Assembly: GCA_022565805.1 (NCBI GenBank)
Contig: JAIULZ010000011.1
Span: 1 to 50,881 of the forward strand
Direction of reading: 5' to 3'
DNA: 50,881 nucleotides
Origin: Balneolales bacterium
GTDB lineage: Bacteria; Bacteroidota; Rhodothermia; Balneolales; Cyclonatronaceae
The number at the start of each line of letters is the position of its first letter. Position 1 is the first letter of the stretch. Below the pieces are notes generated by a model. It did no database searches, was not told where the DNA came from, and worked only from the letters and a program-made list of their open reading frames with translations. A program made the position numbers and the translations under genes. Shown in pieces: positions 7,915 to 28,142 of the stretch.

Positions 7915-8832
7915 TTAGTATAACAGGTCTCCCGTTGAAAGTTTCCGGCATGCTTCTGTCTTAATTCCATCGGCGAGGCAGCTGCGTATGGTAACCCAGT
8001 AATCTGCAGTAGCTATGTTTATTGCACCATCTACAGCTGCACCAACCATTCCTGGTTTTTCGCTGCAGGCTAAACCTGTAATACTAAGGCTTAAAATGGC
8101 CATACTTTCCCCTTTAACCATAGTTTTAGGATGCCCCCAAGGCGATAGAAAAGGAGCAAAATTACAAGCCCTCAGAAATGCATCTATCCGGAAGGCAGAT
8201 TCTCCCCATTCTATTCGGCCATTATTTGGTATTTGATTAGCCCTGTAAAGTATTCGTTTAGAAACATCCTGCTTTTTGCCAGTAATACGCTCTCCTGCAG
8301 ATAGTTTACCGAAAAAGCTTTCTAAAAGCGGTAACCCGTATTTAATGCATTTTAAACTAACCGAGAGGCCGGTATCTTTAGCAGAAACCGGAAAGAAAGC
8401 CTCGTCTATAATATCACCCGCATCAATTTCAGCTACTATTTTATGCAGCGTAACTCCATGATAGGCCTCCCTGTTGTAAACGGCCCAGCCCGGTGCGTTT
8501 AGCCCCGCATAAGCCGGCAGCGGCCCCGGGTGCAGGTTATATGCTCCTATTCGAACTGCTTGTATAACCTCTGTACAGATTACATTGAGAGAATGCACGT
8601 TTATCAGCACATCAATTTCATTATCGATTATCCATGGTCCAAATGATGGTTCTTTAACTAAACCAGATGGTAAAATTAAATAGCCCAAATTTTTTGCCAC
8701 AGTAGTAACCGACGAGCCATTTTTACTGGTAAAATCCTTTGTAAGTACAGCTTTTACAATATGATTAGTGCCCGACAAAAACTTAATTACCTGCGCACCT
8801 GCAGACTCTTCAGCCGCAACTAGAATATTCAT
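7915..8832 (-). CDS. Free-standing 10-formyl-THF-dependent formyltransferase (Fmt/ArnA-N-like)
   Basis: A 305-residue formyltransferase with both the catalytic Rossmann domain and the C-terminal Fmt-like domain. The active-site triad is present: Asn99 and His101 in NLHPGPLP, Asp137 in EIDAGDII. After about residue 195 the stretch GRIEWGESAFRIDAFLRA resembles the C-terminal domain of Fmt and ArnA. I start at the ATG at 8832 rather than a TTG eight codons earlier, because MNILVAAEESAG gives the normal first beta strand. In this EPS setting it more likely formylates an amino sugar or a carrier-bound amino acid than initiator tRNA. The possible promoter lies far upstream, leaving a leader of about 160 bases with a hairpin. 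Confidence 0.88.
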   Translation of the reverse strand: MNILVAAEESAGAQVIKFLSGTNHIVKAVLTKDFTSKNGSSVTTVAKNLGYLILPSGLVKEPSFGPWIIDNEIDVLINVHSLNVICTEVIQAVRIGAYNLHPGPLPAYAGLNAPGWAVYNREAYHGVTLHKIVAEIDAGDIIDEAFFPVSAKDTGLSVSLKCIKYGLPLLESFFGKLSAGERITGKKQDVSKRILYRANQIPNNGRIEWGESAFRIDAFLRACNFAPFLSPWGHPKTMVKGESMAILSLSITGLACSEKPGMVGAAVDGAINIATADYWVTIRSCLADGIKTEACRKLSTGDLLY

Positions 8833-8914
8833 CCATTTATGGTTTATGAAAGGCAAAGATTAAACAGGAAGTCATTAAAAATTATGCTGTTGGTTAGTAA
8901 GTGAAAATACGACT

Positions 8915-8947
8915 GGAATTGGTAATAGTAATAGTAATACCAATTCC
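8915..8947. repeat. Inverted repeat with TAATAG spacer repeats
   Basis: A perfect 10-bp palindrome (GGAATTGGTA and TACCAATTCC) flanks a 13-base loop made of repeated AATAGT units. It lies inside the predicted 5' leader of the formyltransferase mRNA. A partial copy of the arm (TGGAATTACT) lies about 40 bases away. Confidence 0.7.
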
Positions 8948-9006
8948 ATTATTGCACATCAATCGCGGCATTCACTAAAACAACTGGAATTACTTTTAAG
9001 TGGGTC

Positions 9007-9021
9007 GCAAACTTCAGACCA
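9007..9021 (-). promoter_or_regulatory. Possible sigma-54 promoter, weak
   Basis: The minus strand reads TGGTCTGAAGTTTGC. The invariant GG-N10-GC spacing and TTGC are kept, but the -24 box is TGGTCT rather than TGGCAC. The predicted start near 8995 leaves a leader of about 163 bases before the formyltransferase. Confidence 0.45.
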
Positions 9022-9350
9022 AAACAAATAAACCTTCATAATTAATACCTAAGCAGGCCCGGCAACACTAAAAGTTCTAATAAAAACCAGGGGGGTGAGT
9101 AGTAGCGTGCATCGCTAAAAGGTTTACCAGATGCGCAAAAACGGTAATAACAAAAAATCTCAGATAAAACCAGTCGTTCGAATATGAGTAACGGAATAGA
9201 TTTAGGGGTTAAAAAATGCGTGAATAATTTATACAGACGCACACCCTTTTTGTGTAAAAATGTTCTTTCGAGATTACCCTGCACCGGCCAAATGATGCAT
9301 GAGGCTCTGTTAACAGCCATATTCTATTAATGTGCGGTATTTTTACTATT

Positions 9351-9365
9351 TGGCACAACAATTGT
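9351..9365 (+). promoter_or_regulatory. Sigma-54 promoter, near consensus
   Basis: The plus strand reads TGGCACAACAATTGT, a perfect -24 box with T for C at the last -12 position. The same deviation occurs at 28076-28090. The expected start is near 9377, about 118 bases before the monooxygenase gene. Confidence 0.75.
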
Positions 9366-9494
9366 AAAGTGATAGAGAAGCGTAAATAAAAGGGCATTGG
9401 TTAATTCTATAAAATACGTTCGTGCCGCCCGGATAATTTATACTAAAGCAAGGATCTATCTGGCAATATTAATGACTTTTCAACCCTGCAACCA

Positions 9495-10523
9495 ATGGAA
9501 ACCGAGCTATTTACTACAATATCAGAGTCTATAAAGAGCGACAGCGTACAATACCTGCGGGAATTAAAGCGCATTGCTGTACAAAGCGAAAAATATGGAT
9601 ACAAAGGGATACTTGTATACAGCGACAACCGCCTTGCCGACCCATGGGTTATTGCGGCTTTTTTATTAAGTGAAACCGCACAGCTAATACCAATGATCGC
9701 CCTGCAACCCATTTATATGCATCCGTTTACGGTAGCGAAAAAGATATCTAGTATTGCATTTATGCATAAACGAAAAGTAGCCCTAAACCTGGTTGCAGGT
9801 GGATACATAAATGACTTAAAAGCACTTGGCGAATCTATGGAGCACAACCGGAGATACGACAGGCTCATCGAATACAGCGAAATTATACAGAAGCTGTTAA
9901 CAACAAAAGAAGGTGTTACCTACATTGGCGAGTTTTATCAAATACAAAATCTGAAACTAAGTCCCGAAATGCCCGAAGAACTGCTGCCCGACTATTATTT
10001 GTCGGGTTCTTCCGATGCAGCAAAACAAGCGGCAGCTCGACTTGGTGCAAAACTAATTCAGTATCCGGAGCCAATGGATGAGTTAAAAAAGAACGGTGCT
10101 GATAAAACAGCCATCATTGAAGGAATCCGGATTGGTGTTTTAGCCAGGCACAATCACGAAAAAGCATGGAAAGAAGCCCATAATCGATTCCCTGCAACAC
10201 GTATTGGTCAAATATCCCATCAACTTGCAAAACAAACAACCGATGCAGTATGGCATAACAAGTTATCCGGTTTAAATAGTAATGGCTTCTCTTGTAACGA
10301 AAAATCTGCGTATTGGCTGGGGCCTTTCGAGCACTACCACACATTTTGCCCTTATCTGGTGGGCAGTTACGATGAAGTCGCAAAGGCCATTTCTTATTAT
10401 CTGCAAGCCGGGTGCAAAACCTGTATTATCGATACGCCGGTTTCGGATGTAGAACTTCACAGTACAATGCAGGTTTTTAGCAGGGCTCAATCATACTTAG
10501 AAAAAACAGGACTGTTGCAATGA
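9495..10523 (+). CDS. Luciferase-like FMN-dependent monooxygenase (SsuD-like)
   Basis: A 342-residue protein of the bacterial luciferase-like monooxygenase family, closest in pattern to alkanesulfonate monooxygenase SsuD. Supporting segments are the early YGYKGILVYSDNRLADPW, ALQPIYMHPFTVAKK, the flavin-site stretch VALNLVAGG (SsuD has NLVTGG), and LVGSYDEVAKAISYYLQAG near the end. Partners would be FMNH2 and O2. Its stop codon overlaps the start of the adenylation gene (ATGA), so the two are translationally coupled. This points to oxidation of the adenylated or carrier-bound substrate rather than sulfonate use, because no ssu transporter is present. Luciferase-like enzymes are known partners of NRPS modules; the substrate here is unknown. 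Confidence 0.9.
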   Translation: METELFTTISESIKSDSVQYLRELKRIAVQSEKYGYKGILVYSDNRLADPWVIAAFLLSETAQLIPMIALQPIYMHPFTVAKKISSIAFMHKRKVALNLVAGGYINDLKALGESMEHNRRYDRLIEYSEIIQKLLTTKEGVTYIGEFYQIQNLKLSPEMPEELLPDYYLSGSSDAAKQAAARLGAKLIQYPEPMDELKKNGADKTAIIEGIRIGVLARHNHEKAWKEAHNRFPATRIGQISHQLAKQTTDAVWHNKLSGLNSNGFSCNEKSAYWLGPFEHYHTFCPYLVGSYDEVAKAISYYLQAGCKTCIIDTPVSDVELHSTMQVFSRAQSYLEKTGLLQ

Positions 10524-12115
10524 TTTACGATTGGTCGCGAGAGAAAGCGCATACGCATGGCAATTACATTGCTGTTACGCTGGGAGATGAACACCTTAAC
10601 TATGCAGATCTCGAATCTGAAAGTAACCGGCTGGCAGGTTTACTACTTTCATCTGGCCTCGAACCCGGGGCACGGGTCGGTTTATATATGAAAAAGACCC
10701 CAAAAGCACTTATAGCAATTCTTGGAATCCTGAAGGCCGGAGGAGTGTATGTGCCATTGGATTATAAAAGCCCGGCCACACGTGTATCAAAGATCATCAA
10801 GGCTTCAGACCCATCATTTATTTTTATTGATCCTGACACTGTATATAATTATCAGGATGTTTTGTTTACAGATTGCGAATTGAACAATATCTCCTGGGTT
10901 TGGATGGCTAACAGCCCGGTTCTTTTTGGAGACGATTCTCCGCCGGTATTTGGCTACGAAGATTTAAAATCACAACCCGATATCGCCCATAAATGCGAAC
11001 GGGGTAAAAACACAGCTGCTCAGATTTTATTTACGTCGGGCTCTACAGGCGAACCCAAAGGAGTGGTTATAACCCATAAAAATATTATGAGTTTTATTAG
11101 CTGGGCGGCCTCCTATTTTAATATGAATGCGGGCGATCGAACGGCTTGCCACTCTCCTCTTCACTTCGACTTATCTACATTTGATATTTTTGGAGCATTT
11201 GCTTCCGGATCTCATCTTTACCTCGTTCCTGCAGAAATTAGCATTAGTCCCAAAAAATTAGCCGATTTTATATTACATAACAGTATAAACCAGTGGTTTT
11301 CTGTGCCCTCTGCGCTTAGCTATCTGGCTCGGTTTAAGGCGATTCCAGCCGGTGGATTTCCAAATTTAAAGCGATTAATCTGGTGTGGCGAGGTATTTCC
11401 AGTACCTGCTTTACAGTATTGGATGAAAAAATTACCTCATGCTCAGTTCACAAATATGTATGGGCCCACAGAAGCTACGATAGCAAGCAGTTTTTACCCG
11501 CTTAGCAGTGTACCCGGTACATTTGATGAAATACCCATTGGCACAGCCTGCAAAGGAGAAAACCTCATGGTCTTAAACAGAGATATGAGCGCTACAAAAA
11601 CAGGGAAAACAGGAAACTTATACATTTCAGGAGATGGCTTAAGCCCGGGTTACTGGAATGATCCTGATAAAACGAATGATGCTTTTTGCATGTATACCAA
11701 TACCGATGGAACCTTAATAAGAATCTATAAAACAGGCGATTTGGCCATGGTTGCAGAAAATGGCCTTATTTATTTTAAAGGTCGGGCAGACTATCAGATT
11801 AAAAGCAGAGGTTACCGTATCGAGCTGGGAGAGATAGAAGCCGCGTTAAGCGCAGATGAAGCTTTAAAAGAATATGCCGTAGTTCCAGTAAATAAGCGCG
11901 GCTTCGAGGGTACCTCAATAGGATGCGCTTATGTGGGCGGTGGCATTAAAAACGGGGATCTTGCCATTCATTTAAAAAACAAACTGCTGAAAAAAATACC
12001 CGGCTATATGATTCCCCATTTCTGGCAGGAGTATGATGACTCTCTCCCTCGCAATGGAAATGGCAAAATTGACCGCAGAAGATTAGCAGATGAGTTTGAG
12101 AGCCCTACTTCATGA
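10520..12115 (+). CDS. Stand-alone amino-acid-type adenylation enzyme (NRPS A domain / DltA-like)
   Basis: A 531-residue AMP-forming ligase with a full set of adenylation motifs: A3 LFTSGSTGEPKG (170-181), A4 FDLSTFDIFG (216-225), A5 NMYGPTEAT (312-320), A7 YKTGDLA, A8 GRADYQIKSRGYRIELGEIE, and A10 NGKIDRRRL with the catalytic Lys. Asp217 in the FDxS motif is the residue that binds the alpha-amino group in amino-acid-activating domains, so an amino acid is favoured over a fatty acid. No condensation or thioesterase domain is fused. The next gene encodes a carrier protein 25 bases downstream, its probable acceptor. The arrangement resembles the DltA/DltC pair and the ligase/carrier pairs known in exosortase-associated EPS loci. 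Confidence 0.93.
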   Translation: MIYDWSREKAHTHGNYIAVTLGDEHLNYADLESESNRLAGLLLSSGLEPGARVGLYMKKTPKALIAILGILKAGGVYVPLDYKSPATRVSKIIKASDPSFIFIDPDTVYNYQDVLFTDCELNNISWVWMANSPVLFGDDSPPVFGYEDLKSQPDIAHKCERGKNTAAQILFTSGSTGEPKGVVITHKNIMSFISWAASYFNMNAGDRTACHSPLHFDLSTFDIFGAFASGSHLYLVPAEISISPKKLADFILHNSINQWFSVPSALSYLARFKAIPAGGFPNLKRLIWCGEVFPVPALQYWMKKLPHAQFTNMYGPTEATIASSFYPLSSVPGTFDEIPIGTACKGENLMVLNRDMSATKTGKTGNLYISGDGLSPGYWNDPDKTNDAFCMYTNTDGTLIRIYKTGDLAMVAENGLIYFKGRADYQIKSRGYRIELGEIEAALSADEALKEYAVVPVNKRGFEGTSIGCAYVGGGIKNGDLAIHLKNKLLKKIPGYMIPHFWQEYDDSLPRNGNGKIDRRRLADEFESPTS

Positions 12116-12140
12116 TTTTTCAAATAGACACCAGGTTTCT

Positions 12141-12404
12141 ATGCAAAACGAAAAAAGTATTTACCCAAAAATCAAATCGCTTATTTGTAGCACTTTAGCC
12201 ATACAATCTGTTTCTGTAGATGACGATTTACTCGATTCTGGCGTGCTTGATTCTATGTCTCTAATACAGCTTATGTTAGCACTGGAAGAGTATTTTGAGA
12301 TTATTATTCCACCTGAAGAGCTAAATGTTGAAGACTACAGAACCATTAAAACCATTTCTGAAATGATTGAGCGTCTAACCCTGCCAGCATCGCTGGATTC
12401 ATAG
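12141..12404 (+). CDS. Acyl/peptidyl carrier protein
   Basis: A one-domain carrier protein of 87 residues. The phosphopantetheine site is Ser38 in GVLDSMSLIQ, within the usual D-S-x-x-L context, followed by the acidic helix II (MLALEEYFEI) typical of these proteins. I chose the ATG at 12141, which gives a normal carrier length. An ATG at 12090 in the same frame would overlap the adenylation gene and add 17 residues of no carrier character. It probably receives the aminoacyl group from the adenylation enzyme just upstream and presents it to the monooxygenase, formyltransferase or the acyltransferase downstream. Confidence 0.9.
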   Translation: MQNEKSIYPKIKSLICSTLAIQSVSVDDDLLDSGVLDSMSLIQLMLALEEYFEIIIPPEELNVEDYRTIKTISEMIERLTLPASLDS

Positions 12405-12438
12405 TAAACTATTCGACATCCGGCATGATGATCATAAG

Positions 12439-13560
12439 ATGAATGAGATAAAATTAGCCGATAAAGTTACCGCAAAAGCGCACGACGATTCAATATCATT
12501 TTTTTGCTACAGCGATATTGAAGAGGTCGCCCAATTGTCTCAAAAATATTTTCCGGAAAGCAGAAATGTACCGCTTAAGAGCCTGAACAAAACGTTGCAG
12601 CTACTCTATTTCGAAAAAGGAAACCATCTCAAGAGCAGTTCCACGCTGGTTAGCCGGTCGGTTGATGGTACCGTAGATGGGTTTCTGGGAGTAATTACGC
12701 GTTCATTTCGCTATAAAAACCGCATCATCAACGTAGCAAACTGCCATCACTTGATGGCAACAGAACAAGCTCGTTCAAAGCTATTACCCATAAAAATGCT
12801 GCAGAAGTTTCTTTCGGGGCCGCAGGATCTTTCCTTCGCAGATAATTCCTCAGAAACAACCCGTTTACTTTGGAAAAGGTTGGGTGGAGAACCTGCTATA
12901 AGCGATTGTATTTACTATAAAGTACCTTTACGCCCTATCTCTTTTGCGCTTCGGCCTGTACTTAAGTTTATGAATAAGCCTGTGCAGAAAGCAGTGGCTC
13001 TGCTTGCTAAAGGGTCGGATATGTTAGCAAGCAGAGTTCATATACCTCTGTTCTATCGAAACAAGACGGGTGCGGAGTTAAGGCCTTTGAGCGCTCAGCT
13101 GCTAAACGATTCTTTAGCTAAAATAAGCAGCCAATATTTTCTCTTTCCACATTTTGATCCCGCCAAAATTGAGCGACTTTTTCTTTTATTGAGCCGGGAA
13201 AAGAGGTATGGTATTTTGCATAAATATATTATTACAGATGAAAATAGCGAGCTGGCCGGCTGGTTTATTTACTATTCAAAAAAAGGAGGCGTTTGTGAAG
13301 TTATACAAGCAGTGTGCATGCCCGGGAAAGAAACTCTTTTATTTGATACGCTAACAAGACATGCATATATGCAGGGCGGCATAGAGCTTTCGGGCCGGCT
13401 GATGCCCAATCAACTGCAGTCTCCCATTGCCCGCAGAGCCGTATGTATACCAGCCAGAATGTGGACATTGTTTCATACCCGGAATGCTGAGCTTATGCTT
13501 GATATTCAAACCGGGAAAGCTTTTTTCAGCAGGCTTGAAGGCGATTTGTGGCTAATTTAG
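12439..13560 (+). CDS. GNAT-like acyltransferase, last gene of the carrier-protein operon
   Basis: A 373-residue protein with weak GNAT-fold character. The first half (about 20-150) has a GNAT-like start (ISFFCYSDIEEVAQLSQKYF) and strands such as GFLGVITRSFRYKNR. The second half has a further strand-rich stretch including ELAGWFIYYSKKG. No signal peptide or membrane helix is seen. It lies 34 bases after the carrier-protein gene and ends the operon, so it is a reasonable candidate for moving the carrier-bound acyl group to an amino sugar or glycan. The family assignment is tentative, and the donor could also be acetyl-CoA. Confidence 0.6.
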   Translation: MNEIKLADKVTAKAHDDSISFFCYSDIEEVAQLSQKYFPESRNVPLKSLNKTLQLLYFEKGNHLKSSSTLVSRSVDGTVDGFLGVITRSFRYKNRIINVANCHHLMATEQARSKLLPIKMLQKFLSGPQDLSFADNSSETTRLLWKRLGGEPAISDCIYYKVPLRPISFALRPVLKFMNKPVQKAVALLAKGSDMLASRVHIPLFYRNKTGAELRPLSAQLLNDSLAKISSQYFLFPHFDPAKIERLFLLLSREKRYGILHKYIITDENSELAGWFIYYSKKGGVCEVIQAVCMPGKETLLFDTLTRHAYMQGGIELSGRLMPNQLQSPIARRAVCIPARMWTLFHTRNAELMLDIQTGKAFFSRLEGDLWLI

Positions 13561-13877: not shown

Positions 13878-15074
13878 TCAGTTATCTCTTTCTGTGCGTA
13901 TCCAATTCTCTTCCTTTCCTTTTTTATATGCTTTAAAATAGACTTTAACTTTCCAGAGAATATATAGAGGCAAATGAATTAGCGACATGTAGAGGTCCCG
14001 GTCTGCACGGGCTACGTACATCCCAATGAAAAAATAGGCAAGTCCGAGTGTGGCCAGCAGAGCCCATAAAACAAGGTGAAGCGTTCCCACAATATCCAAA
14101 AGCCACAAACCAAAAACCAGTGATAGCAGAAGCATTACAAGCAGCATCATGTTAACAAATGGGGGTGTAATCAAATCGATAAACACATCAAAATAAGAGG
14201 CTGAACGTTTTTTATAAGCCTGAGACAAGAATTTTCTGGTATACATTTTTATAATCTGAAACCTGCCAAGCTCCCATCTGGACCTTTGTGATTCGGCATT
14301 TTTGGCCTCTACCGGCATCTGAGCCAAAACCGTAGCTTCAGGCGCAAAGTCTATTTTTATGCCATGAAGTATTAGAATAAGACCATATTCCAGATCTTCG
14401 GTTAGCGACCAGGCTTTCCATGGAACTTCTTTTAAAACCTCCGAGGCAAAACACATGCCATTACCCCGTAAGCCCATGTTAAAACCAAGTACTTTGCGCC
14501 CGAGAGGCTTCACATAATTGTGTAGCAGAAAGCCAATGCGGGTGGCTTCAACGCTCCAGTTACCAGGTTCAGGCAAGACCAAATCGCTACTTTGAATAAC
14601 CTGGCTGCCTTTATCCAGGTACGAATTCATAACCTCTAGATAATTACCCGAAATCAAGCTGTCTGCGTCTACAACTATAATAGCATCATACGACTCATTA
14701 TAGGCTGCAATTTTATCAAATGCCCACCTCAAAGCGTATCCCTTTCCTTTATCTGTGACACTTGTTCTCTCTAAAACATTTACACCCAGCGATCGGGCCA
14801 GGCTTGCTGTATTATCTGAGCAATTATCGGCTATTACGTAAATATTATACGCGTTTTTAGGATACACCAGCCCCGAAAGGCTGTAAATGGTTTTTGCGAT
14901 AATCTTTTCTTCGTTATGCGCCGGAACAATAAGCGCAAATTTCCTGATAATGGAAGACTCAAAACGCGTCTGGATCTTTGCATTTAGCGCCAAAAGGCTC
15001 AAGACAAACTGGTATCCTAACAGAGGAGTAAGGGTAAAGAATAGGATGAATAAAATAATTTCTGGCAGGTTCAT
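13878..15074 (-). CDS. Membrane GT2 processive glycosyltransferase (BcsA/HasA-like)
   Basis: A 398-residue family 2 glycosyltransferase. A membrane helix at about 5-28 is followed by the GT-A domain with VPAHNEE, VDADS (DxD for metal and UDP-sugar), a TEDLE motif carrying the catalytic Asp, and QRSRW, the Q-x-x-R-W signature of processive beta-glycosyltransferases. Three hydrophobic segments follow after about residue 295. The start overlaps the stop of the GH9 gene by 4 bases, so the two are co-translated. The pairing recalls cellulose-type systems in which a synthase travels with a periplasmic glucanase. Whether it makes a beta-glucan or adds a single sugar to the EPS cannot be read from sequence alone. 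Confidence 0.9.
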   Translation of the reverse strand: MNLPEIILFILFFTLTPLLGYQFVLSLLALNAKIQTRFESSIIRKFALIVPAHNEEKIIAKTIYSLSGLVYPKNAYNIYVIADNCSDNTASLARSLGVNVLERTSVTDKGKGYALRWAFDKIAAYNESYDAIIVVDADSLISGNYLEVMNSYLDKGSQVIQSSDLVLPEPGNWSVEATRIGFLLHNYVKPLGRKVLGFNMGLRGNGMCFASEVLKEVPWKAWSLTEDLEYGLILILHGIKIDFAPEATVLAQMPVEAKNAESQRSRWELGRFQIIKMYTRKFLSQAYKKRSASYFDVFIDLITPPFVNMMLLVMLLLSLVFGLWLLDIVGTLHLVLWALLATLGLAYFFIGMYVARADRDLYMSLIHLPLYILWKVKVYFKAYKKGKEENWIRTERDN

Positions 15075-16870
15075 TGAGATGGATATCCCTTATTTGGCTG
15101 TAGTAAAACGCTCTGATGAGTAGAAGAAATGGAGAAAGCACTGGTAACAAATACAAGTATGCCCGTAAAATTAATGGCCGGTTCATTTACAAGATAGTTT
15201 TCAAATGTATCTTCGTAGTTCTTTGCCGGCCATGGCGATATTTGTTTACTATTGAGCAGCAGGTGATTATTGGCACCACCAACGAGCATACCGGGAACCG
15301 GAGCAGAAAAACCGCCAAGTTCAGAAAGCTGATGATAAGGATATCTTACCGAAACCGAGCCAATACCGGTTATTTGTGAAGTATTTAAGGGATTTCTTCC
15401 CATTATATAATGAAGCTGATCGAGTGCCGCGTACTTATATGTCGGGTCTGCAGATATTTCGTAGGCGTGCAGCAAATCGAAGGCATAAGCCAGGCCAACA
15501 CTGTTTGACCCCCAGTAATACTGCCCGCCACTAAGAAGATTTCGATAATTATTTTGATTATGAACATCCATAATGGCATCTGCCTGTTGTATTACAACCG
15601 CCTCTATCTTCTGCCGGTCTTGCGAATAGCGATCCGGAATGTATGACGACAGAAACGCACGCAGGGCCAGACTTTCGGCATCGCGCCAGCTAATTGGTGG
15701 TATATTATCCAGGCTCAACATATCGTAGTTTTGGATAAAGAAATCGAGATAGACTTCTTTGCTCGTTAATTTATATAGTTCTGCGGCAGCCCATAAGCGC
15801 TCATCAAGGTCAGATGAATCTCCGTACTGCCCGCCCGATACGCCATCGGGGTTTTTGAAACCACCAATCGGTTTATTCTGTGGGTTTTTCACCAGGAAAT
15901 CCCATGCCTTTTCAGAAGCTTTGTATAGCTCACGGGAATAGATTGGTTTAAACTCTGCGAATAGACGAGCCCCGAGTGCAGCGCTTGCAGCAAATGAAGC
16001 CGTAGCCGCGCTGCTTACCTCAAAAATATAGCGGATAGAAGGGTCGCTATGTGGCAGGTACTCACCAATCCATTTTTTTTGAGATACTTTATGATACACA
16101 GCTCCGTCGGGTCGCTGCATTTTGAGCAGCCATTTGAGCGCATAGCCTGTTTCATCCAGAATATCCGGTATTCCATTTCCTGATTCCGGAATATCCAGCT
16201 GATTATCTTTAAAAAGGTCGGGATTCAATTCGTAGGCATACAAAAGCAGAGCTGCACTTAATGCTGTATTACCGGAAAATTTATTGTAATCGCCCGCATC
16301 GTGCCAGCCACCGTCAACATTTTTTGTTATTGCGGGTTCATCAAAAAAAGGCGCATCGTCCAGATGACAAGCCGAATAGCTCCACTCGCTGTCGTTAGCT
16401 ACCGATGTACCGCATCTGTGGAAATAATAGCTTTGAACCATAGTTAAAACAGCACTATGATATACGTTTTTTTGAATAACAAATGGATGGGACGATAACC
16501 GCTTATCACTATCTATTTGTATAAAATATAAACCGGGCTCGCTAAAGCCAGAGAAATCAATAACAGATACACGGTCGCCACTTATCGTATCGGGTTGGCG
16601 ACTCACCCCCACCAATCCACCAAAAACAATCGTAGAGTCATTCAGCCGCACGATTTCGAAAAATACTGCTTCTGCATTTACAGCAAAAGCATGTTTGGGG
16701 CTTTTCGCCTCATACCCTACAAGATTTACGGCTATAAAAGGTTCATCTTTAGCTTTATTACACCCCAAAAGCTGGAGCAGAAACAGCAGCGCTGCCGCTA
16801 CAGTAAACGCCCGATTGTAACGCCCGTATTCTATGCAACATTTTTTAACTATTTGACCAGAGGTGCTCAA
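15071..16870 (-). CDS. GH9 family endoglucanase-like lipoprotein
   Basis: A 599-residue envelope lipoprotein: signal ending LLGC (Cys37), an Ig-like CelD_N domain (about 42-130), then an (alpha/alpha)6 GH9 catalytic domain. The catalytic Asp pair lies in GGWHDAGDYNK (Asp191, Asp194). The proton donor is probably the Glu in NEPAINFTG near the C-terminus, and the MGRNPLNTS stretch is also GH9-like. GH9 enzymes cleave beta-1,4-glucans. The start is TTG at 16870, supported by AAGGTGA six bases upstream and by the absence of an ATG before the signal peptide. It is followed in overlap by the processive GT2 gene, so a role in trimming or releasing that polymer is likely but inferred. Confidence 0.9.
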   Translation of the reverse strand: MSTSGQIVKKCCIEYGRYNRAFTVAAALLFLLQLLGCNKAKDEPFIAVNLVGYEAKSPKHAFAVNAEAVFFEIVRLNDSTIVFGGLVGVSRQPDTISGDRVSVIDFSGFSEPGLYFIQIDSDKRLSSHPFVIQKNVYHSAVLTMVQSYYFHRCGTSVANDSEWSYSACHLDDAPFFDEPAITKNVDGGWHDAGDYNKFSGNTALSAALLLYAYELNPDLFKDNQLDIPESGNGIPDILDETGYALKWLLKMQRPDGAVYHKVSQKKWIGEYLPHSDPSIRYIFEVSSAATASFAASAALGARLFAEFKPIYSRELYKASEKAWDFLVKNPQNKPIGGFKNPDGVSGGQYGDSSDLDERLWAAAELYKLTSKEVYLDFFIQNYDMLSLDNIPPISWRDAESLALRAFLSSYIPDRYSQDRQKIEAVVIQQADAIMDVHNQNNYRNLLSGGQYYWGSNSVGLAYAFDLLHAYEISADPTYKYAALDQLHYIMGRNPLNTSQITGIGSVSVRYPYHQLSELGGFSAPVPGMLVGGANNHLLLNSKQISPWPAKNYEDTFENYLVNEPAINFTGILVFVTSAFSISSTHQSVLLQPNKGYPSQ

Positions 16871-17043
16871 AAAATCACCTTAATAATAATATGGTTTAGA
16901 AGGCTTTACAAAACCACTCGTTTACCCAACTTCTTTATTGAATCCAAAAACAAAATCACCGAGCTGTAGCAGCGGTAATTCCGGTTTTATTTTTGATTCG
17001 GCCACGAAATCGAACAAAACAGATGGTAATTACAAGCCGTCAT

Positions 17044-18204
17044 TTACTTCGAAGACTCCTGGTAGGAGTTCAACTTAACTTTACTGAAATTATTTCCCGG
17101 TTTCGAAAGACCGCTTTGGTTCTTATGCTTTCCATTTAACGTAAACTCAAGTTCTTTTTTAATACTATCCACAAATTGTTCAATATTATGAACCTCCTCT
17201 ATATATTTTCGCGCTGCTTCTCCCATGGTTTTGCACCGTAATGGATCGTTCCATAATTCCAGGATTGCCAGACGCATGGCTTCCACATCTCCTTGTGGCA
17301 CTAAAATACCGGTAACGCCATCTTGTATTACGTCTATCTGACCCTCAGATTTAGAGCAAATTACTGTTTTTCCCATAGCCATAGATTCGAGTATAGAGGT
17401 AAGCCCATTATCAGAGTCGGTTGGCAGCAGAGGAACAACAACAAAACGCGACCGTGCATATAACTCTCGTAAATCGGCTGGCTTTTTCTTACCCACACTT
17501 ATATATTCTGGTAAATCAGGAATACTCCGTAGTTTTTTTACGGTGTTAAAAACTTCGCCCCTTGCAATACCAGAAGCTATATGGCAGTGTATATTAAGTG
17601 GGCGCAATGCTTCTACCAGAGTGGGGTAGTCCCGGGCTTCCATTCCAACCGAACAGATCATATCCGTTTGCCTTGTTTCGGGTCTCCAAAACTCCTGATC
17701 GGTACCCCGCTTAACAAGAATCATTTTCTCTGGCGTTATATTTAACTCTTCTATGGCAATTTTACGCTGTATAGACGACCAAATAATAAATCTGCTTATC
17801 GTATCTTTTGTATGCTTTAGAAACCATCTTTTTTGTCTGGATTTTTTTTCATCTACAGATGTAATTCTGGATATGATAACCACATGAGGTTTGTTAATGC
17901 CAAGATATTTCATAAATAACGCAAGGGGCAGCCCCACTTTTTCTTTATGAGATAAAATAACATCGAATCGATTCATGATGTAAAGAGCTTCAATTAATTG
18001 AGCTAAACTAACGGGCAGCAGTTTATAAAGAAATTTTCGCAATCGGGGTGGTTTATCCTCTAAATACCTTTCATCTAACAACTCTGCCGAGATGGCGCAC
18101 TCTAGAAGAGACGCGCGGGGAATTTTATCGGTTTCCTCAAGCTTCTTCATTTCTTCTTCGGCTACTTTGTTCATTCCCTTTGATATAATATAAAGTGTTT
18201 TCAT
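17044..18204 (-). CDS. GT4-family glycosyltransferase
   Basis: A 386-residue cytoplasmic retaining glycosyltransferase with the GT-B fold. The C-terminal donor-binding half carries SDNGLTSILESMAMGKTVICSK, containing the E-x7-E type motif that holds the nucleotide sugar, and GILVPQGDVEAMRLAI. The N-terminal acceptor half is less typical. The gene follows the deacetylase gene by 36 bases, and together with the GH9 and GT2 genes forms a likely four-gene unit behind the sigma-54 promoter at 19231. The sugar it transfers cannot be assigned. Confidence 0.9.
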   Translation of the reverse strand: MKTLYIISKGMNKVAEEEMKKLEETDKIPRASLLECAISAELLDERYLEDKPPRLRKFLYKLLPVSLAQLIEALYIMNRFDVILSHKEKVGLPLALFMKYLGINKPHVVIISRITSVDEKKSRQKRWFLKHTKDTISRFIIWSSIQRKIAIEELNITPEKMILVKRGTDQEFWRPETRQTDMICSVGMEARDYPTLVEALRPLNIHCHIASGIARGEVFNTVKKLRSIPDLPEYISVGKKKPADLRELYARSRFVVVPLLPTDSDNGLTSILESMAMGKTVICSKSEGQIDVIQDGVTGILVPQGDVEAMRLAILELWNDPLRCKTMGEAARKYIEEVHNIEQFVDSIKKELEFTLNGKHKNQSGLSKPGNNFSKVKLNSYQESSK

Positions 18205-18240
18205 GCGAGCCGTTTTGGGGTATTTGTAGAATAAATAGGG

Positions 18241-19110
18241 TTATGCATTTTGCTTACTCATAGCATCTGAAAAACTATTTTCTTCGTCTCTGTACATTTT
18301 GATTGGTGGTTTCTCAATTTCCGGATCTTCTGTTTTTTTCAGTTTTGATGATTTTATCAGATTATATAACCACTCTATATACTGGTAAGGGGTTACCAGT
18401 TTTATGGCAAAAGCCTGAATGCTTGTATTATGGTTAATTGCAATTCTTCTAAGATCATAAACTGTTTTACCAAATGTGGGCGAGCCTGTATACACACCAC
18501 AAGCGAATAAATAGCCCGATTCGGAAACTATCTGTTTAATTCTCTTATCGAACTTGCCATAGGGGTATGCGAAACTCTGAACCGGAACCTGCAGAACTGC
18601 CTCAATCTCTATTTTAGACTGCAATATGGTATATTTGGCCTCAGAATCTGTGAGATCCGATAGTATTACATGATGCATTGAATGCGAACCAATTTCGAAA
18701 CCCAGACTGCTAACCGCCTGCAGCTGCCTGTCGGTCATTAACGGGCAAACATCGTCTTCGTCCCGCTCATCCCATTCGGCTCGTTTTAGTTTTCTGTTTC
18801 CTATGGCAAAAACCACGCCTCTCATTCCCATTTCTTTCATAATGGGAATAGCATTTTCATATGTGTCTAAATAGCCATCATCGAATGTTATAATAATGGG
18901 CTTGGAGGGCAGCGTTAACTTGTCCTCCTGATACAAATGATAATCTTTGAATGTTATAGGAGTGTAGCCAAGCCGATCTATAAGCTTAAGCTGTTTTCGA
19001 AATTCCGCTATGGTTACATAGTGCCAATGATTGTATTTCACCGCCACATCCTGAATAATGCGATGGTACATCAACACTTTTATTTTGTTGGTAAGTTTAT
19101 AGTCTCTCAC
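18241..19110 (-). CDS. NodB-type polysaccharide deacetylase
   Basis: A 289-residue CE4-like deacetylase. Metal and catalytic motifs are ITFDDGYLDTY (motif 1, catalytic Asp plus metal Asp), GSHSMHH (motif 2, metal His pair) and FAYPYGKFD (motif 3). It has no signal peptide, as in the deacetylases of exosortase-associated EPS loci, so it may act on a lipid-linked intermediate in the cytoplasm or leave by another route. It begins with GTG. It is the first gene behind the consensus sigma-54 promoter at 19231-19245, with a purine-rich leader of about 109 bases. Deacetylation would expose free amino groups that acyl- or formyltransferases of this locus could use; that is inference. Confidence 0.92.
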   Translation of the reverse strand: MRDYKLTNKIKVLMYHRIIQDVAVKYNHWHYVTIAEFRKQLKLIDRLGYTPITFKDYHLYQEDKLTLPSKPIIITFDDGYLDTYENAIPIMKEMGMRGVVFAIGNRKLKRAEWDERDEDDVCPLMTDRQLQAVSSLGFEIGSHSMHHVILSDLTDSEAKYTILQSKIEIEAVLQVPVQSFAYPYGKFDKRIKQIVSESGYLFACGVYTGSPTFGKTVYDLRRIAINHNTSIQAFAIKLVTPYQYIEWLYNLIKSSKLKKTEDPEIEKPPIKMYRDEENSFSDAMSKQNA

Positions 19111-19157
19111 GTCTTTTTTGAATAGTTGTATTTCGTTGAATACAATGGCTTATTTAA

Positions 19158-19211
19158 TTTTCTCTCTTTCTCTCTTTCTCTCTCTAATTCTCTGTATCTC
19201 TACTCTTTTTT
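19158..19211. repeat. Polypyrimidine (CT)n/(CTTT)n tract
   Basis: A nearly uninterrupted C/T stretch built of TCTC and TTTC units. In the deacetylase mRNA it reads as a GA-rich leader right after the predicted sigma-54 start. It is a simple repeat and could vary in length. Confidence 0.85.
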
Positions 19212-19230
19212 CTATTGATTTTTAACATAT

Positions 19231-19245
19231 GCAACAAGCGTGCCA
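19231..19245 (-). promoter_or_regulatory. Sigma-54 promoter, consensus match
   Basis: The minus strand reads TGGCACGCTTGTTGC, an exact TGGCAC-N5-TTGC that also carries the G after TGGCAC found in the long consensus. The expected start is near 19219. It should drive the deacetylase-GT4-GH9-GT2 unit. Confidence 0.9.
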
Positions 19246-19836
19246 GCATCTCCTTGATCGTATTAATATATCTACTTCTGCATATTTTGCTTATACAAGC
19301 AGCTCTGCAGAAAGCTTTCCGAAATCGTTTAAGTTGCCCGTCTTTTGCCTTAACGCGCAAATTAAACCCTCAAATAATCGGGCTATTCCTTGTTTTTTGT
19401 TTATGCTCTGGTATTCAAAAATAAACCGGATTTTAGCTGTTCTATATCTTTAGATATGTTTTCTAAAAGTCTTCATTAATTTTCATTTCTCTGCAATTGA
19501 AGTTTTTTAAAAAATCCCAGAATAGAACTGCTTAATAGATGTGTAAAAACTTTACTTACAGGCGATTTTCTACCCACCACAAAACTCACTTTTCTCAATT
19601 CGTTTTATAAAAGATTTTTTTAAAAACACCCTTCTACCTCTCATATACCTTACCGCAAAGATAAACCCTGAAGCAGACCGTATTTGCTTCAGTTATATAT
19701 TGCTCCGGCCTTAGTACGAATAAAGCAGAAGGTTTTAATGTGATATATATTTGTGATTTTGAGATTTTAGAATGTATACACGCATAATTCTTAATGCAGA
19801 CCTCTGGGTATCGATCCTCTTTCTCCGGTCAATATT
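19246..19836. other. Intergenic region without a recognised gene
   Basis: About 590 bases between the sigma-54 promoter of the deacetylase unit and the end of the long export operon. It is A/T-rich and contains only short overlapping frames without family character. No clear terminator for the upstream operon was seen. An upstream activator site for the 19231 promoter would be expected here. Confidence 0.5.
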
Positions 19837-21177
19837 TCACCCTCGCTGTAGAGTCTTCATCCGAAACTTAAAATAGCCCGAAACCATCTTTAAAATACCT
19901 TTCTTCCTGTACTGTACATTAAGCAAAAGCATTTCCCTTCGAGTGTGCTTATAAAGCAGCGAGCTAAAGTAAAGCAGCGAAACCGCAACCTTCCCGGTGA
20001 AGCCTTTTTTATGCTGAGCCGGAATTGTAATCTGCCAGTTAACTATTTGGTTTTCTGTAAAGTCGAACTTATACTCTTCTCTACCCCTTAAAAGCTCGAC
20101 CGAGGTAATTTTACTTTTAGCAGCATCATGAATCAAATTAAGCAATAGTGCAATACCCGGCCGGTATTTAGCCGAAGGACTTTCAATATCGTATCCACTG
20201 AGGAAGTCATAGTATCTGTTATTATACAATAGCAGCATACGTACTGCACATACGCCCTCACTATCTACGGCTTGTTTTAGCCAAAGCTGCTTCTTTTGAT
20301 GAGCCTGTTGAACGATTTCCGTAAAAAAAGCCCTAAATCTGGAATCGTGAAAAACTCCCGGAAACCCAATCTCATTCCACCTATTCTGATGCAATCTGAT
20401 TAAGTCTGCAGACATTTCTTTAACCTGACCAAGTGTTTTGGCTTCCTGAATCTGATATTCTTTATTGGCTCCTTCCGCTCGAAAGGTTTGTCGAAATCTT
20501 CGTCTGGCATTTGGCTTAGATTGCTCAACAAACGAAAGAAGAGTGTCTGTCTCACTAAGATCGATATACGGGCAGGAGTCGGACTTCGCAATTCTAAGCA
20601 CCATATTATTTTTTAGCAGAAACGGATAAATTACTTCTTTTATGAAGCTATCGTCTCTTAACTGATGCAAAATAATGCGTCTTTTGGCAATGCCGGGATT
20701 TCTTAGAAGGGTAAGAAATAAGCAGGCAACGGGTAGGTCAAAATCCCGGTCTACAATAAAATCCAGAAAGTCGCTAATGCCATAATCATCTGTAAAGCCC
20801 AGGGTTTCGTTGGTATTACCTCCGCTGCCTATAAGCTGCAAACGATGGTCAATCTCTATACCCGCAATTATCGAAACCCCTTTAAAAAAGGGGAATATTG
20901 CCACTAGCTTTTCGCTATTGTAGGCTGCAATTATGTATAATGTCCTATTTGTGTTCTCACCAAAATGGTTCCACCAGATTTTTGCCCAATCGGGAGACAT
21001 ATACATAAACCGTCCCGATCTCCGGGCAAGTTCCTTCCAGTCGTCATACAAAAAATCGAAGGCGTCAGAACTGGTAAAAATAAGGGTAGAAAGTTTTTTT
21101 TTGGGTTTTGCATGGTATTTTAAACCTTCTTCTTTGGTGTATATAATTTCTGCATCGTTAAGCATAAGAGCACCCAT
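19837..21177 (-). CDS. CelD/BcsL-type GNAT acyltransferase of EPS loci
   Basis: A 446-residue protein of the GNAT family linked to cellulose and EPS synthesis (CelD/BcsL, with FemAB-like resemblance). Typical segments are YMSPDWAKIWWNHFG near the start, LFLTLLRNPG, SCPYIDLSETDTLLSF, PNARRRFRQTFRA, and YDFLSGYDIESPSAKYRPG in the acyl-CoA-binding half. It is the last gene of the export operon, 3 bases after the preceding glycosyltransferase. It probably adds an acyl or aminoacyl group to a sugar precursor in the cytoplasm. Together with the GNAT-like genes at 12439 and 32881 it makes three such enzymes in one locus. Confidence 0.85.
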   Translation of the reverse strand: MGALMLNDAEIIYTKEEGLKYHAKPKKKLSTLIFTSSDAFDFLYDDWKELARRSGRFMYMSPDWAKIWWNHFGENTNRTLYIIAAYNSEKLVAIFPFFKGVSIIAGIEIDHRLQLIGSGGNTNETLGFTDDYGISDFLDFIVDRDFDLPVACLFLTLLRNPGIAKRRIILHQLRDDSFIKEVIYPFLLKNNMVLRIAKSDSCPYIDLSETDTLLSFVEQSKPNARRRFRQTFRAEGANKEYQIQEAKTLGQVKEMSADLIRLHQNRWNEIGFPGVFHDSRFRAFFTEIVQQAHQKKQLWLKQAVDSEGVCAVRMLLLYNNRYYDFLSGYDIESPSAKYRPGIALLLNLIHDAAKSKITSVELLRGREEYKFDFTENQIVNWQITIPAQHKKGFTGKVAVSLLYFSSLLYKHTRREMLLLNVQYRKKGILKMVSGYFKFRMKTLQRG

Positions 21178-21180
21178 TTT

Positions 21181-22428
21181 TTATGAATAGATTCCATTGG
21201 ATTCATACTTCATCCTGTCTTCATCACTAGAATAGTCATTTGCCTTAATGCCTGTTAGCTCTTCAAAAGCGCGCTCCATTTCAGCACCAATGGTTGCCCA
21301 TCTGTATTTACTCATAACCAGCTCGTACCCTTGGTAGCTAAGCGAATCGCAAAGCTCTTGGTTATCAAACAGTTCGATTACAGCTTTTGCAAAGGCATCG
21401 GGTTTATCTGTTATCAAGGCATGTTTATTGTGTTCAAGATCTATACCTTCGCAGCCAATGCTTGTGGTTACCAGCGGAATTTTGGAAGCCAAAGCTTCCA
21501 TAATTTTAAGCCGGGTTCCGCCTCCCATCCGCAATGGTACTACATAAACAGATGCCTCATGAATGTATGGCCGGGTATCGCCTACAAAGCCAGTAACAAT
21601 TATGTTATGGCAGGTTCTGTTTACGATAGCTCTAGGCGGATTTTTGCCACATATGGTGATGGTCGCATCCGGATATACCGCTAAAATTTTGGGGAAGATT
21701 TCATCCAGAAAATAAAGGATGCCATCACAATTAGGTACATATTTCATCATGCCGACAAAGACCAAAGAATGAGGCCTCCCCGGCTTCGTACCGGGGTAAA
21801 AGAATGTTTCGTCTACACCGTTGGGAACAAGATACTTAGGCACAGCCGGTACCGGTTTTTCAAACAGGTTGATATCGCGTTCGCTAGTTACAAAAAGTGC
21901 ATTTTGTTTACGACAGACGGCAGTTTCTTCCTTGTTGAATTTATAGGATTCCAGAAGGTAGAACAGCTTTTTAAGCGGATTCTTAACCTTCGCCATTCGC
22001 TGGAAGTTATCGTATTCCACATTATGCGCATCCAAAACCTTAATGGCATCGCTATTGAAAGTAAACATCCCCATCACGGGAAATTCGCACTGTATTACAT
22101 CAAATGTATTTTTAAGACAAACCTCATTTATTTTTAGCTGAAGCTTATGAGATCTGGAATTAAGGTACCAAAGGCTATGAAAACTAAACAGCGACCTCAT
22201 TAAGTTGAAGTAAGTAGATGTATTACTACATAAATCTTCCACAAAATGCGTTTTCCCGGCCAGCACGGGAAAATTTTGGATGAGCTGTTTTTCTTCCTCA
22301 GAGGTGCTGAAGCCAACTACGGTAACATCATATTTTTGGGTTAAGTATTTTAATATATTGTAAATACGCAAAGATCCCCCAAAGGTAGGATTTGCAGGAC
22401 TGTAAGGAATAACATACAAAATCTTCAT
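21181..22428 (-). CDS. GT4-family glycosyltransferase (stp1-like)
   Basis: A 415-residue GT-B glycosyltransferase resembling the sugar transferases of PEP-CTERM/EPS loci. The N-terminus MKILYVIPYSP is followed by the GGSLRIYNILKYL acceptor-side loop. The C-terminal half has VGMMKYVPNCDGILYFL and GGGTRLKIMEALASKIPLV, which includes the donor-binding Glu. No membrane segment or signal peptide is present, so it acts at the cytoplasmic face. The gene is 4 bases after the flippase gene and 3 bases before the CelD-like gene, showing tight co-translation. The donor sugar is unknown. Confidence 0.92.
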   Translation of the reverse strand: MKILYVIPYSPANPTFGGSLRIYNILKYLTQKYDVTVVGFSTSEEEKQLIQNFPVLAGKTHFVEDLCSNTSTYFNLMRSLFSFHSLWYLNSRSHKLQLKINEVCLKNTFDVIQCEFPVMGMFTFNSDAIKVLDAHNVEYDNFQRMAKVKNPLKKLFYLLESYKFNKEETAVCRKQNALFVTSERDINLFEKPVPAVPKYLVPNGVDETFFYPGTKPGRPHSLVFVGMMKYVPNCDGILYFLDEIFPKILAVYPDATITICGKNPPRAIVNRTCHNIIVTGFVGDTRPYIHEASVYVVPLRMGGGTRLKIMEALASKIPLVTTSIGCEGIDLEHNKHALITDKPDAFAKAVIELFDNQELCDSLSYQGYELVMSKYRWATIGAEMERAFEELTGIKANDYSSDEDRMKYESNGIYS

Positions 22429-22432
22429 AGCT

Positions 22433-23938
22433 TTACTTTTTGATGAAATAGATAAATTTTTCTTTATTCGAGTCTATCATACTCTTGATGAGGACTAGCT
22501 CTTCTGTATTAAAGGTTTTTATAAAAAATAAGGCAGTGATGTAGGAAACCCCGCCAATGATGAGCGTTAGAATCCAATACAATCCTGTAAAATGTAAAAA
22601 CAGCAATATGGGAGTTACCATAAAAACAGAGGCCATGACTGGTTTAAAAACATAGCTGCTCCTAAATGTTTGGAGGTAGCCCTTAGGTAGGAGGTAAAAT
22701 GCTGCGCCCATCACGAATAGCTCTGTGAACAAAGTTGCGATCGCAGCGCCTATTCCTCCGTTTTCATACATGATTTGCGTGTAAGGAATAAGTAAATAGT
22801 TGGCAAAAATATTAATGAATATGGCGAATAGCCCCACAATTGCCCAGGCTCTTTGTTTATTGGCAGCCCCCATAAGTGCGCTTCCCAAAATGATATCAAC
22901 AAAAATAATTGGAATACTGAGGGCGAAAATCTGTAGCACTATTACTGAGGGTGCGTAGGCTTCGAGCCCCATAAAAAACTGAATAATCTGTTCTGAAAAC
23001 AGAAAAATGGCCAGTGCGGTAGGAATGCCAAATACAATCATCAATCGCAGGCTCTGTCCCACAGTATCTTCCAGCACGCCTGCCTTATTATCCCATAATT
23101 TTGAAAAAACGGGAAAAATAGCTGTCTTATAGAGCAGGGGCAGCACCATTACGATATCAAAAAAACGAAAGGCTCCGCCGTACCATCCTGTAACCTCTTC
23201 TGAAGTTAATGAGGCGAGCATTACAGCGTCTATGCGATAATAAATCACGGAAAAAAGTGAGAATAGAAAGAAGGGCATTCCGGAGCGTAAAAGTGAGAAT
23301 ACCTTGGGATCGAAGGTATAGCTTACCCGCACAACTCTTCTCGAGAACCAGTAAATAACAATCAGATTGAGCAGCGCCCCTGCCGTTATTACAACCGCCA
23401 CGCCGATTGAATCGGCCCCAAGAAGCAGCGCACCCACGGCAAAGAAGGCCACAAAAAGCTTCTCCACGATGGTACCCATCGATGGATATTTCATTTTCTC
23501 TATTCCTTGGAAATACGCACTAAACGCAGAAGTTCCTCCTTCCCAAAGTTTTGCAATAATAAGAATTAAAATTAGCAGATGTACGTGCTGCGAATACCCA
23601 AGCAGCTTCGATATAAGAAGAATAAGGCCAATCGATAAAATCCAAAGCACGATTCTCAGCATAAGATAGCTGCTTAAAATAGCTGCTCCCTTTTTCTCGG
23701 ATCTCGCCACTTCTTTGGGAATCAGGTAGTTACCGCCAAAGTCTATAAGAAGCCCTAATATCATCTTTATAGATAGAGCAAGATAGAGCCGCCCGAAGTC
23801 TTCTGGCCCGAGGTAACGGGGCAGAAAATAGAGTAGTAAGAAACTCGAGCCCCAGGTTACAACCTGAGCGCCAAACATAACCGATACGTTTTGAGCTACA
23901 GACTTACCAATGCTTAACTGTTCGGCCGGTTCATTCAT
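22433..23938 (-). CDS. Wzx-type polysaccharide flippase (MOP superfamily)
   Basis: A 501-residue integral membrane protein with about 12-14 hydrophobic helices spread evenly along its length. It matches RfbX/Wzx flippases in size, in the N-terminal SVMFGAQVVTWGSSFLLLYF and LPRYLGPEDFGRLYLALSI segments, and in the basic ends. It would move undecaprenyl-linked repeat units across the inner membrane. The start overlaps the end of the ligase/polymerase gene by 8 bases. Together with Wzz- and Wzy-like neighbours it supports a Wzx/Wzy-dependent export route for at least one polymer of the locus. Confidence 0.92.
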   Translation of the reverse strand: MNEPAEQLSIGKSVAQNVSVMFGAQVVTWGSSFLLLYFLPRYLGPEDFGRLYLALSIKMILGLLIDFGGNYLIPKEVARSEKKGAAILSSYLMLRIVLWILSIGLILLISKLLGYSQHVHLLILILIIAKLWEGGTSAFSAYFQGIEKMKYPSMGTIVEKLFVAFFAVGALLLGADSIGVAVVITAGALLNLIVIYWFSRRVVRVSYTFDPKVFSLLRSGMPFFLFSLFSVIYYRIDAVMLASLTSEEVTGWYGGAFRFFDIVMVLPLLYKTAIFPVFSKLWDNKAGVLEDTVGQSLRLMIVFGIPTALAIFLFSEQIIQFFMGLEAYAPSVIVLQIFALSIPIIFVDIILGSALMGAANKQRAWAIVGLFAIFINIFANYLLIPYTQIMYENGGIGAAIATLFTELFVMGAAFYLLPKGYLQTFRSSYVFKPVMASVFMVTPILLFLHFTGLYWILTLIIGGVSYITALFFIKTFNTEELVLIKSMIDSNKEKFIYFIKK

Positions 23939-25487: not shown

Positions 25488-25494
25488 AGGTAGG

Positions 25495-25659
25495 CTAGGA
25501 TTCGGGCACGGGCATCAAAAACATCATTACAACAACATAAACAACCAACAGTAGAGTTAGTACGAAGGTAATTACATAGCGTAAAGTGTCTTCCATAGAA
25601 AATTTTGAGATGTATAGAATGAGCATGTGAAAGAAGATTATGCCTAACAACACATTCAT
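25495..25659 (-). CDS. Small two-helix membrane protein between kinase-like and polymerase genes
   Basis: A 54-residue ORF. It starts in a TAATG overlap with the stop of the preceding ATPase gene and stops 7 bases before the start of the Wzy-like gene, so it fits the operon exactly. The product has a hydrophobic N-terminal helix (MNVLLGIIFFHMLILYI), a short polar link KFSMEDTLRY, a second helix (VITFVLTLLLVVYVVVMMFL) and a PVPES tail. No family recognised. Position suggests a partner of the Wzz, kinase-like or Wzy proteins in the inner membrane; that is inference. The precise stop/start overlaps are the main evidence that it is translated. Confidence 0.72.
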   Translation of the reverse strand: MNVLLGIIFFHMLILYISKFSMEDTLRYVITFVLTLLLVVYVVVMMFLMPVPES

Positions 25660-27720: not shown

Positions 27721-27782
27721 GATATATTTATGTTTAATAACAACTTGATGAAATAGCAATGGTATAGCTGGCTTTACCCACT

Positions 27783-27797
27783 GCAATTGCTATGCCA
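27783..27797 (-). promoter_or_regulatory. Sigma-54 promoter of the export operon, near consensus
   Basis: The minus strand reads TGGCATAGCAATTGC, with T for C at the end of the -24 box and an exact TTGC. The expected start is near 27771, 51 bases before the Wzz ATG at 27720. It shares the 422-base gap with the divergent promoter at 28076-28090. Confidence 0.82.
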
Positions 27798-28075
27798 AAT
27801 GAGGGTAGAACAATATGTGGCCGCCCCTTACCCCTTGTACGCATTGGTATAGTGGGTTTTAAGGTATTATTATTTTTTCAGGCAGAGCGCTTGTTACTAC
27901 AGTAATACTCCTGCTCGATTCCTATTTACTCAATCTTGTTAGAGGGGTGTGCAATTTATTCCCAATTCGGTACTCATCTTTTTTGCTGGTTTTGTGAAAC
28001 TTTACTGAATTGAAATATTTTCATAACCTTAAATATCAACAGCTTACAGTGTATATAATATATATAAAAATAGTT

Positions 28076-28090
28076 TGGCACTGTTGTTGT
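28076..28090 (+). promoter_or_regulatory. Sigma-54 promoter of the OPX operon, near consensus
   Basis: The plus strand reads TGGCACTGTTGTTGT, a perfect -24 box with T for C in the last -12 position. The expected start is near 28102, 41 bases before the OPX gene ATG at 28143. Confidence 0.75.
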
Positions 28091-28142
28091 CTGCATAGGC
28101 AAAACAGAATAACCATACCCATTTTTGATTGTATTGAATACC

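Follow-up and report, generated by a model that had tools for sequence, protein, structure and literature searches.

A candidate carrier-protein aminoacylation cassette with monooxygenase and N-capping genes in an exopolysaccharide locus of Balneolales

Five neighbouring genes in the window (the whole stretch of 50,881 nucleotides of Balneolales DNA analysed here) encode a formyltransferase (FT), a luciferase-like monooxygenase (LLM), a stand-alone adenylation enzyme (A), a carrier protein (ACP) and a protein called G373 here (Table 1). We hold, with moderate confidence, that this cassette is a carrier-protein aminoacylation line, with oxidation and an N-cap, that decorates the exopolysaccharide (EPS) of the locus in which it lies. 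The folds of the gene products, their active sites, their conservation and their linkage lead to this reading, and from them we infer the amino acid, its oxidation, the order of the steps, the acceptor and the product. The substrate of A would be a small alpha-amino acid, in all likelihood glycine, which A would adenylate and load onto the phosphopantetheine arm of ACP. LLM, using FMNH2 from a general flavin reductase, would oxidise the carrier-bound aminoacyl group, and FT would cap the amine, either before or after transfer. Acyl transfer would fall to G373, which would act in the cytoplasm, prior to export by Wzx, and attach the group to the EPS repeat unit at an amino (or hydroxyl) position. 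More tentatively, the cassette may represent an undescribed, cross-phylum form of EPS tailoring: LLM would oxidise an amino acid on its carrier, a formyl, carbamoyl or acetyl group would cap it, and a tandem GNAT would place it on the polysaccharide, so that the glycan would bear a substituent of a kind so far unknown. No papers on this cassette were found in the open-access literature, although such absence is not proof of novelty. That five genes of these kinds lie here had been proposed from the sequence alone, and profile scans and coordinates confirm it.

Table 1. Cassette genes and the adjoining EPS core, in window coordinates
Feature	Position	Strand	Assignment and evidence
FT, formyltransferase	7915-8832 (probable); 7915-8856 including the TTG start	-	ArnA/Fmt-like catalytic and C-terminal domains; PF00551 and PF02911
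LLM, luciferase-like monooxygenase	9495-10523	+	Predicted FMNH2-dependent luciferase-like flavin monooxygenase; PF00296, E 5.6e-32
A, stand-alone amino-acid adenylation enzyme	10520-12115	+	TIGR01733 above cut-off; pocket DLFFICMIAK, AlmE/DltA-like
ACP, acyl/peptidyl carrier protein	12150-12404 (ORF 12090-12404)	+	PF00550, E 4.9e-12
G373, putative tandem-GNAT acyltransferase	12439-13560	+	AlphaFold model; presumed acyl transfer from ACP to acceptor
EPS core: GT2, GH9, GT1, polysaccharide deacetylase, Acetyltransf_6 protein, GT4, Wzx, Wzy, AAA, Wzz, Wza	13878-28859		Pfam

The cassette is a real conserved unit and not a chance arrangement, because pairwise dN/dS is far below 1 in comparisons without saturation at synonymous sites and the order LLM-A-ACP-G373 is retained across Balneolales loci. 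Among the 129 Balneolales genomes surveyed, LLM is present in 16 and G373 in 16, with 14 having both (Fisher p 7e-15), and the FT family is present in 12, all of them LLM-positive (p ~7e-14); these p-values ignore shared ancestry and show merely that the genes are not scattered. In all 12 genomes FT is adjacent to LLM and divergent from it. Scattered, unlinked genes in relatives would have spoken against the original prediction; instead, the genes form one unit linked to EPS genes of the Wzx/Wzy type. LLM and A are further tied together in that A decays where LLM is lost or shortened: in L137 (genome G080) LLM is reduced to its last third and A has lost conserved motif residues, with G373 still open, and in L022 LLM is absent and A is degraded in the same way. 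One genome (G102, locus L138) carries A-ACP-G373 without any LLM, and its A has an altered pocket, DMMFICLIAK.

Within the order, the same Wzx lineage is found in 17 of the 18 cassette genomes, and eight genomes have this Wzx without the cassette. The order of the EPS core is kept both with the cassette and without it. Complete EPS loci also exist without the cassette (L168 in G084), which makes it an optional part of a single EPS locus. In one genome, G093, the cassette and the EPS core are not contiguous. The original prediction had given a special role to the EPS deacetylase, as the enzyme that exposes the acceptor. This part is not supported: the deacetylase and the Acetyltransf_6 protein also occur in cassette-free EPS loci, and the deacetylase was dropped as a partner of the cassette. 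Neither protein has an obvious signal peptide by eye, and both could act in the cytoplasm. Other genes of the region include a GH9 cellulase-like gene (15071-16870), which is a constant member of the EPS core even in cassette-free loci, two GH5-like genes near the core (184-2607 and 33671-34930), and a gene for a CheB-CheR-histidine kinase hybrid protein (35970-39467) downstream of the EPS locus.

The cassette recurs in a second phylum, within other Wzx/Wzy loci. This LLM was found in 11 of 200 genomes of one class of Acidobacteriota, and A adjoins it in all ten loci inspected. The order LLM-A-ACP-G373 is identical in L188-L190 and L195. The neighbours in L188 are a sugar transferase, a Wzy-type polymerase, a flippase, a GT4 and a deacetylase, and two loci very close to it, L189 and L190, have a similar layout. 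In its own phylum, LLM was absent outside the order Balneolales from the 394 genomes sampled. More distant homologues of LLM (36-44% identity) are carried on plasmids in A/PCP/PPTase/NRPS loci, where the neighbours are adenylation enzymes, carriers, PPTases, P450s and halogenases. As these are typical natural-product loci with transporters, they suggest another function, in which the product of the cassette is a small diffusible compound, an N-oxidised or formylated amino acid serving as signal or metallophore, and the EPS genes are mere neighbours. We regard this as improbable: in two phyla the cassette lies with EPS genes and, in the order, it is nearly confined to one Wzx lineage, and the scanned part of the window has no dedicated exporter. 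Among the ORFs searched with Pfam between 6 and 41 kb, none has a condensation or thioesterase domain, as had been noted at the outset. Among the plasmid loci, L155-L158 combine LLM relatives and A/PCP/PPTase genes with acyl-CoA dehydrogenase, P450 or halogenase genes.

A passes the cut-off of the amino-acid adenylation family TIGR01733 (359 versus 317.4 bits) and lies below those of DltA (TIGR01734; 308 versus 559.85 bits) and of the XrtA-associated ligase_PEP_1 (TIGR03098; 236 versus 592 bits). Membership in either of the latter families was rejected on these scores, and the pocket code is unlike the codes of XrtA ligases (DASTATMFRK or DYSATSMFRK). Nearly all Balneolales copies have the code DLFFIC[LM]IAK; three have Tyr at the third position, and in a few Leu replaces Ile. 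The Acidobacteriota proteins, with a whole-length identity of 30-48% to the A of the window, have the code D-L-[FHL]-F-L-C-L-[IV]-A-K. Every intact LLM-linked A retains D-L-[FYHL]-F-[IL]-C-[LM]-[IV]-A-K, which includes Asp235 and Lys517. Pocket Asp235 reads the alpha-amino group of the substrate. Judged by this residue and the near-invariant code, the pocket is predicted to be an alpha-amino-acid pocket, as opposed to one that fits just fatty acids; the same two features argue against A being a fatty-acid ligase.

The best matches in the PDB to the substrate subdomain of A are 6o6e (an L-prolyl ligase, and the top match by sequence), 4oxi and DltA. We take 4oxi to be the Vibrio cholerae enzyme AlmE, which acts on glycine. 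Its code, taken from the printed alignment, is DLHLFCLIA, to which the Acidobacteriota code is identical at seven of the nine readable positions and the Balneolales consensus at six of nine. DltA agrees with the Balneolales consensus at four of nine positions. L-proline was rejected as the substrate: 6o6e is the best subdomain match, yet it shares just three of nine pocket positions with that consensus. The predicted substrate is most likely glycine, although alanine or a different small amino acid may be used instead, pocket codes being rough predictors. A plasmid search with A gave matches to NRPS A domains or to prolyl-ligase-like A enzymes with the code DLFYLALVCK. Two further loci, L026 and L029, contain distant A enzymes (~30% identity) with the pocket code of the LLM-linked copies, here DLFFLCLIAK, and no LLM was found in their flanks.

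The model of LLM (pLDDT 83.8) aligns with MsuD over 319 residues (VIA Z 31.5, rmsd 2.8), which places LLM, at the level of the predicted fold, in the FMNH2-dependent luciferase-like superfamily with the TIM-barrel of SsuD and MsuD. These two are also its nearest characterised structures, as would be expected if LLM were simply a sulfonate monooxygenase with no connection to A and ACP. The active site of SsuD includes Cys54, Arg226, His228 and Arg297. Of these four compared residues, Arg226 is retained in LLM and three are replaced (Cys54 by Leu47, His228 by Gly214, Arg297 by Tyr281), and a sulfonate monooxygenase was dropped as the identity of LLM for this reason. LLM also scores below the SsuD cut-off (TIGR03565; 112 versus 518 bits), it adjoins A in two phyla, and in the window the start of A lies 4 bases inside the stop of LLM, so that a sulfonate monooxygenase is hardly credible here. 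Homologues of a flavin reductase and of a PPTase are present in the Balneolales source genome. The same genome (G000) has large NRPS genes and a phosphopantetheinyl transferase at ~122000-154200 of C1.

The DS phosphopantetheine site of ACP is present in all orthologues, and their alignment suggests that 12150 is the probable start of the gene. G373 gives no match to Pfam and NCBIfam profiles. It had been called GNAT-like from the sequence, and an AlphaFold2 model from ten orthologues (pLDDT 80.1, pTM 0.78) bears this out as a tandem GNAT, a membership in the GNAT acyltransferase superfamily that is read from the model. Among solved structures the model matches N-myristoyltransferases best (Foldseek E 7.9e-13; VIA Z 19.8, rmsd 4.5, 299 residues aligned), with bacterial tandem GNATs just behind (VIA Z 19.4). 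At ~12% identity to the N-myristoyltransferases, the resemblance is one of fold alone. The Acidobacteriota homologue in L188 matches PF13527 (Acetyltransf_9). The full-length orthologues in the alignment share one C-terminal end, GDLW[LV][IL] or DDIWLL. In N-myristoyltransferases the C-terminal carboxylate is catalytic; for this reason the fixed C-terminus of G373 may be important for function.

The acceptor is likely to be an amino sugar of the EPS. An N-myristoyltransferase fold in G373 would also suit a different surface molecule, namely a lipid, lipid A or a protein, modified in the manner of the AlmEFG system; the AlmE-like pocket of A points the same way, and AlmG acts on lipid A (PMC12930378). 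We consider such an acceptor quite improbable, given that the cassette sits in an EPS locus and that no AlmG/LPLAT gene is seen beside it. For an EPS amino sugar there is precedent among bacterial glycans, where the sugars Qui4N and Qui3N bear N-formyl, N-acetylglycyl and N-acetylalanyl groups (PMC3210612). The cassette is a gene set that could build N-acylaminoacyl groups of the kind reported on such glycans.

FT is probably the N-capping enzyme. It has both domains of its class (PF00551, E 7.8e-14, and PF02911), and its catalytic Asn-His...Asp triad is retained and is invariant among orthologues, in keeping with the full active site and divergent orientation first read from the sequence. Its start is probably the ATG at 8832, 24 bases inside the TTG at 8856, because orthologues start at MNILL. 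The closest solved relatives of FT are ArnA and other sugar formyltransferases, GDP-perosamine formyltransferases and ArnA being the nearest, and FT is closer to sugar formyltransferases than to the NRPS formylation domain. Its scores are below the formyltransferase equivalog cut-offs, that of ArnA included (87.3 versus 316 and 85.5 versus 777 bits).

These relatives allow for two separate decorations of the EPS, with FT formylating a sugar-nucleotide amine and LLM-A-ACP-G373 making an unformylated acyl group. The divergent transcription of FT in Balneolales fits such a division, as do the DegT-type sugar aminotransferases that adjoin the cassette in L142, L022, L137 and L144. DegT genes are, however, found in cassette-free EPS loci as well. 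Moreover, FT in Balneolales never occurs without LLM (12 of 12), and in the Acidobacteriota locus L192 a formyltransferase 40% identical to that of the window is placed directly between A and ACP. We regard two separate decorations as rather unlikely, and favour FT as part of the aminoacylation line.

The cap itself appears to vary. FT lies beside the cassette in 13 LLM genomes, a NodU-like carbamoyltransferase lies beside LLM-A in seven Acidobacteriota loci (L188-L190, L193, L196, L023 and L024), and a small GNAT directly follows A in four Balneolales loci (L098, L139, L141 and L138, the last having no LLM). No two of the three occur in any one locus. A simple reading is that a formyl-, carbamoyl- or acetyltransferase caps the same nucleophile interchangeably, with the distribution of the three types partly confounded with phylogeny. 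NodU-type enzymes are mostly O-carbamoyltransferases. The presence of FT takes two changes on the LLM tree. L020, which is nested in the FT clade, is without any of the three enzymes, and FT is therefore not essential.

The cassette joins the chemistry of assembly lines (A, carrier and LLM) to the decoration of polysaccharides, in two phyla and with apparently interchangeable caps. It offers a marker that would predict which exopolysaccharides bear oxidised aminoacyl groups.

Several known systems share parts of this arrangement. The original prediction had cited Dlt systems and the ligases of exosortase EPS loci as precedents, of which the Dlt-type loading stands and ligase_PEP_1, with its quite different pocket code, does not; AlmEF and butirosin are nearer. 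Exosortase (XrtA) loci do resemble the present one in having an AMP ligase in an EPS locus, and the XrtA family TIGR03087 is the closest one to the GT4 found here, but the ligase belongs to another family and no LLM was found in the fetched flanks of XrtA loci. In linear gramicidin synthase LgrA (F-A-PCP), formylation is likewise linked to an A-PCP module, whereas here FT has a gene of its own and is more like sugar formyltransferases, and there is no condensation domain. For oxidation and transfer the nearest precedent, likened by its described route, would be butirosin (BtrI/BtrO/BtrH), whose AHBA side chain is the work of BtrJ, BtrI, BtrK, BtrO and BtrH: BtrK decarboxylates the carrier-bound amino acid, BtrO hydroxylates the side chain, and an amino sugar then receives it from BtrH (PMC2922099, PMC7857480, PMC8430323). 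A Rhizobium locus of the plasmid LLM type recalls this route through a fused decarboxylase that resembles TIGR03099 (352 versus a cut-off of 478 bits). The cassette, however, has no decarboxylase, and the butirosin acceptor is an antibiotic rather than a polymer. In DltABCD, which D-alanylates teichoic acids, an A/carrier pair also aminoacylates a surface polymer, and Cys and Ala are common to the pockets; the differences are that A falls below the DltA cut-offs, that no DltB or DltD is seen here, and that the cassette has extra enzymes for oxidation and capping. In AlmEFG of Vibrio cholerae, AlmE loads glycine on the carrier AlmF, and AlmG then transfers it (PMC12930378). As in the cassette, a stand-alone A enzyme and a small carrier are joined by an acyltransferase, which there acts on a surface glycolipid, and the pocket of A is closely similar to that of 4oxi. 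AlmEFG differs in that it is without an LLM or N-capping enzyme and targets lipid A instead of being linked to EPS. AlmG is an LPLAT, and the tandem-GNAT model of its counterpart G373 would set the cassette outside the AlmEFG family. By analogy, the nearest precedents for the loading of the carrier are AlmEF, with glycine, and DltAC.
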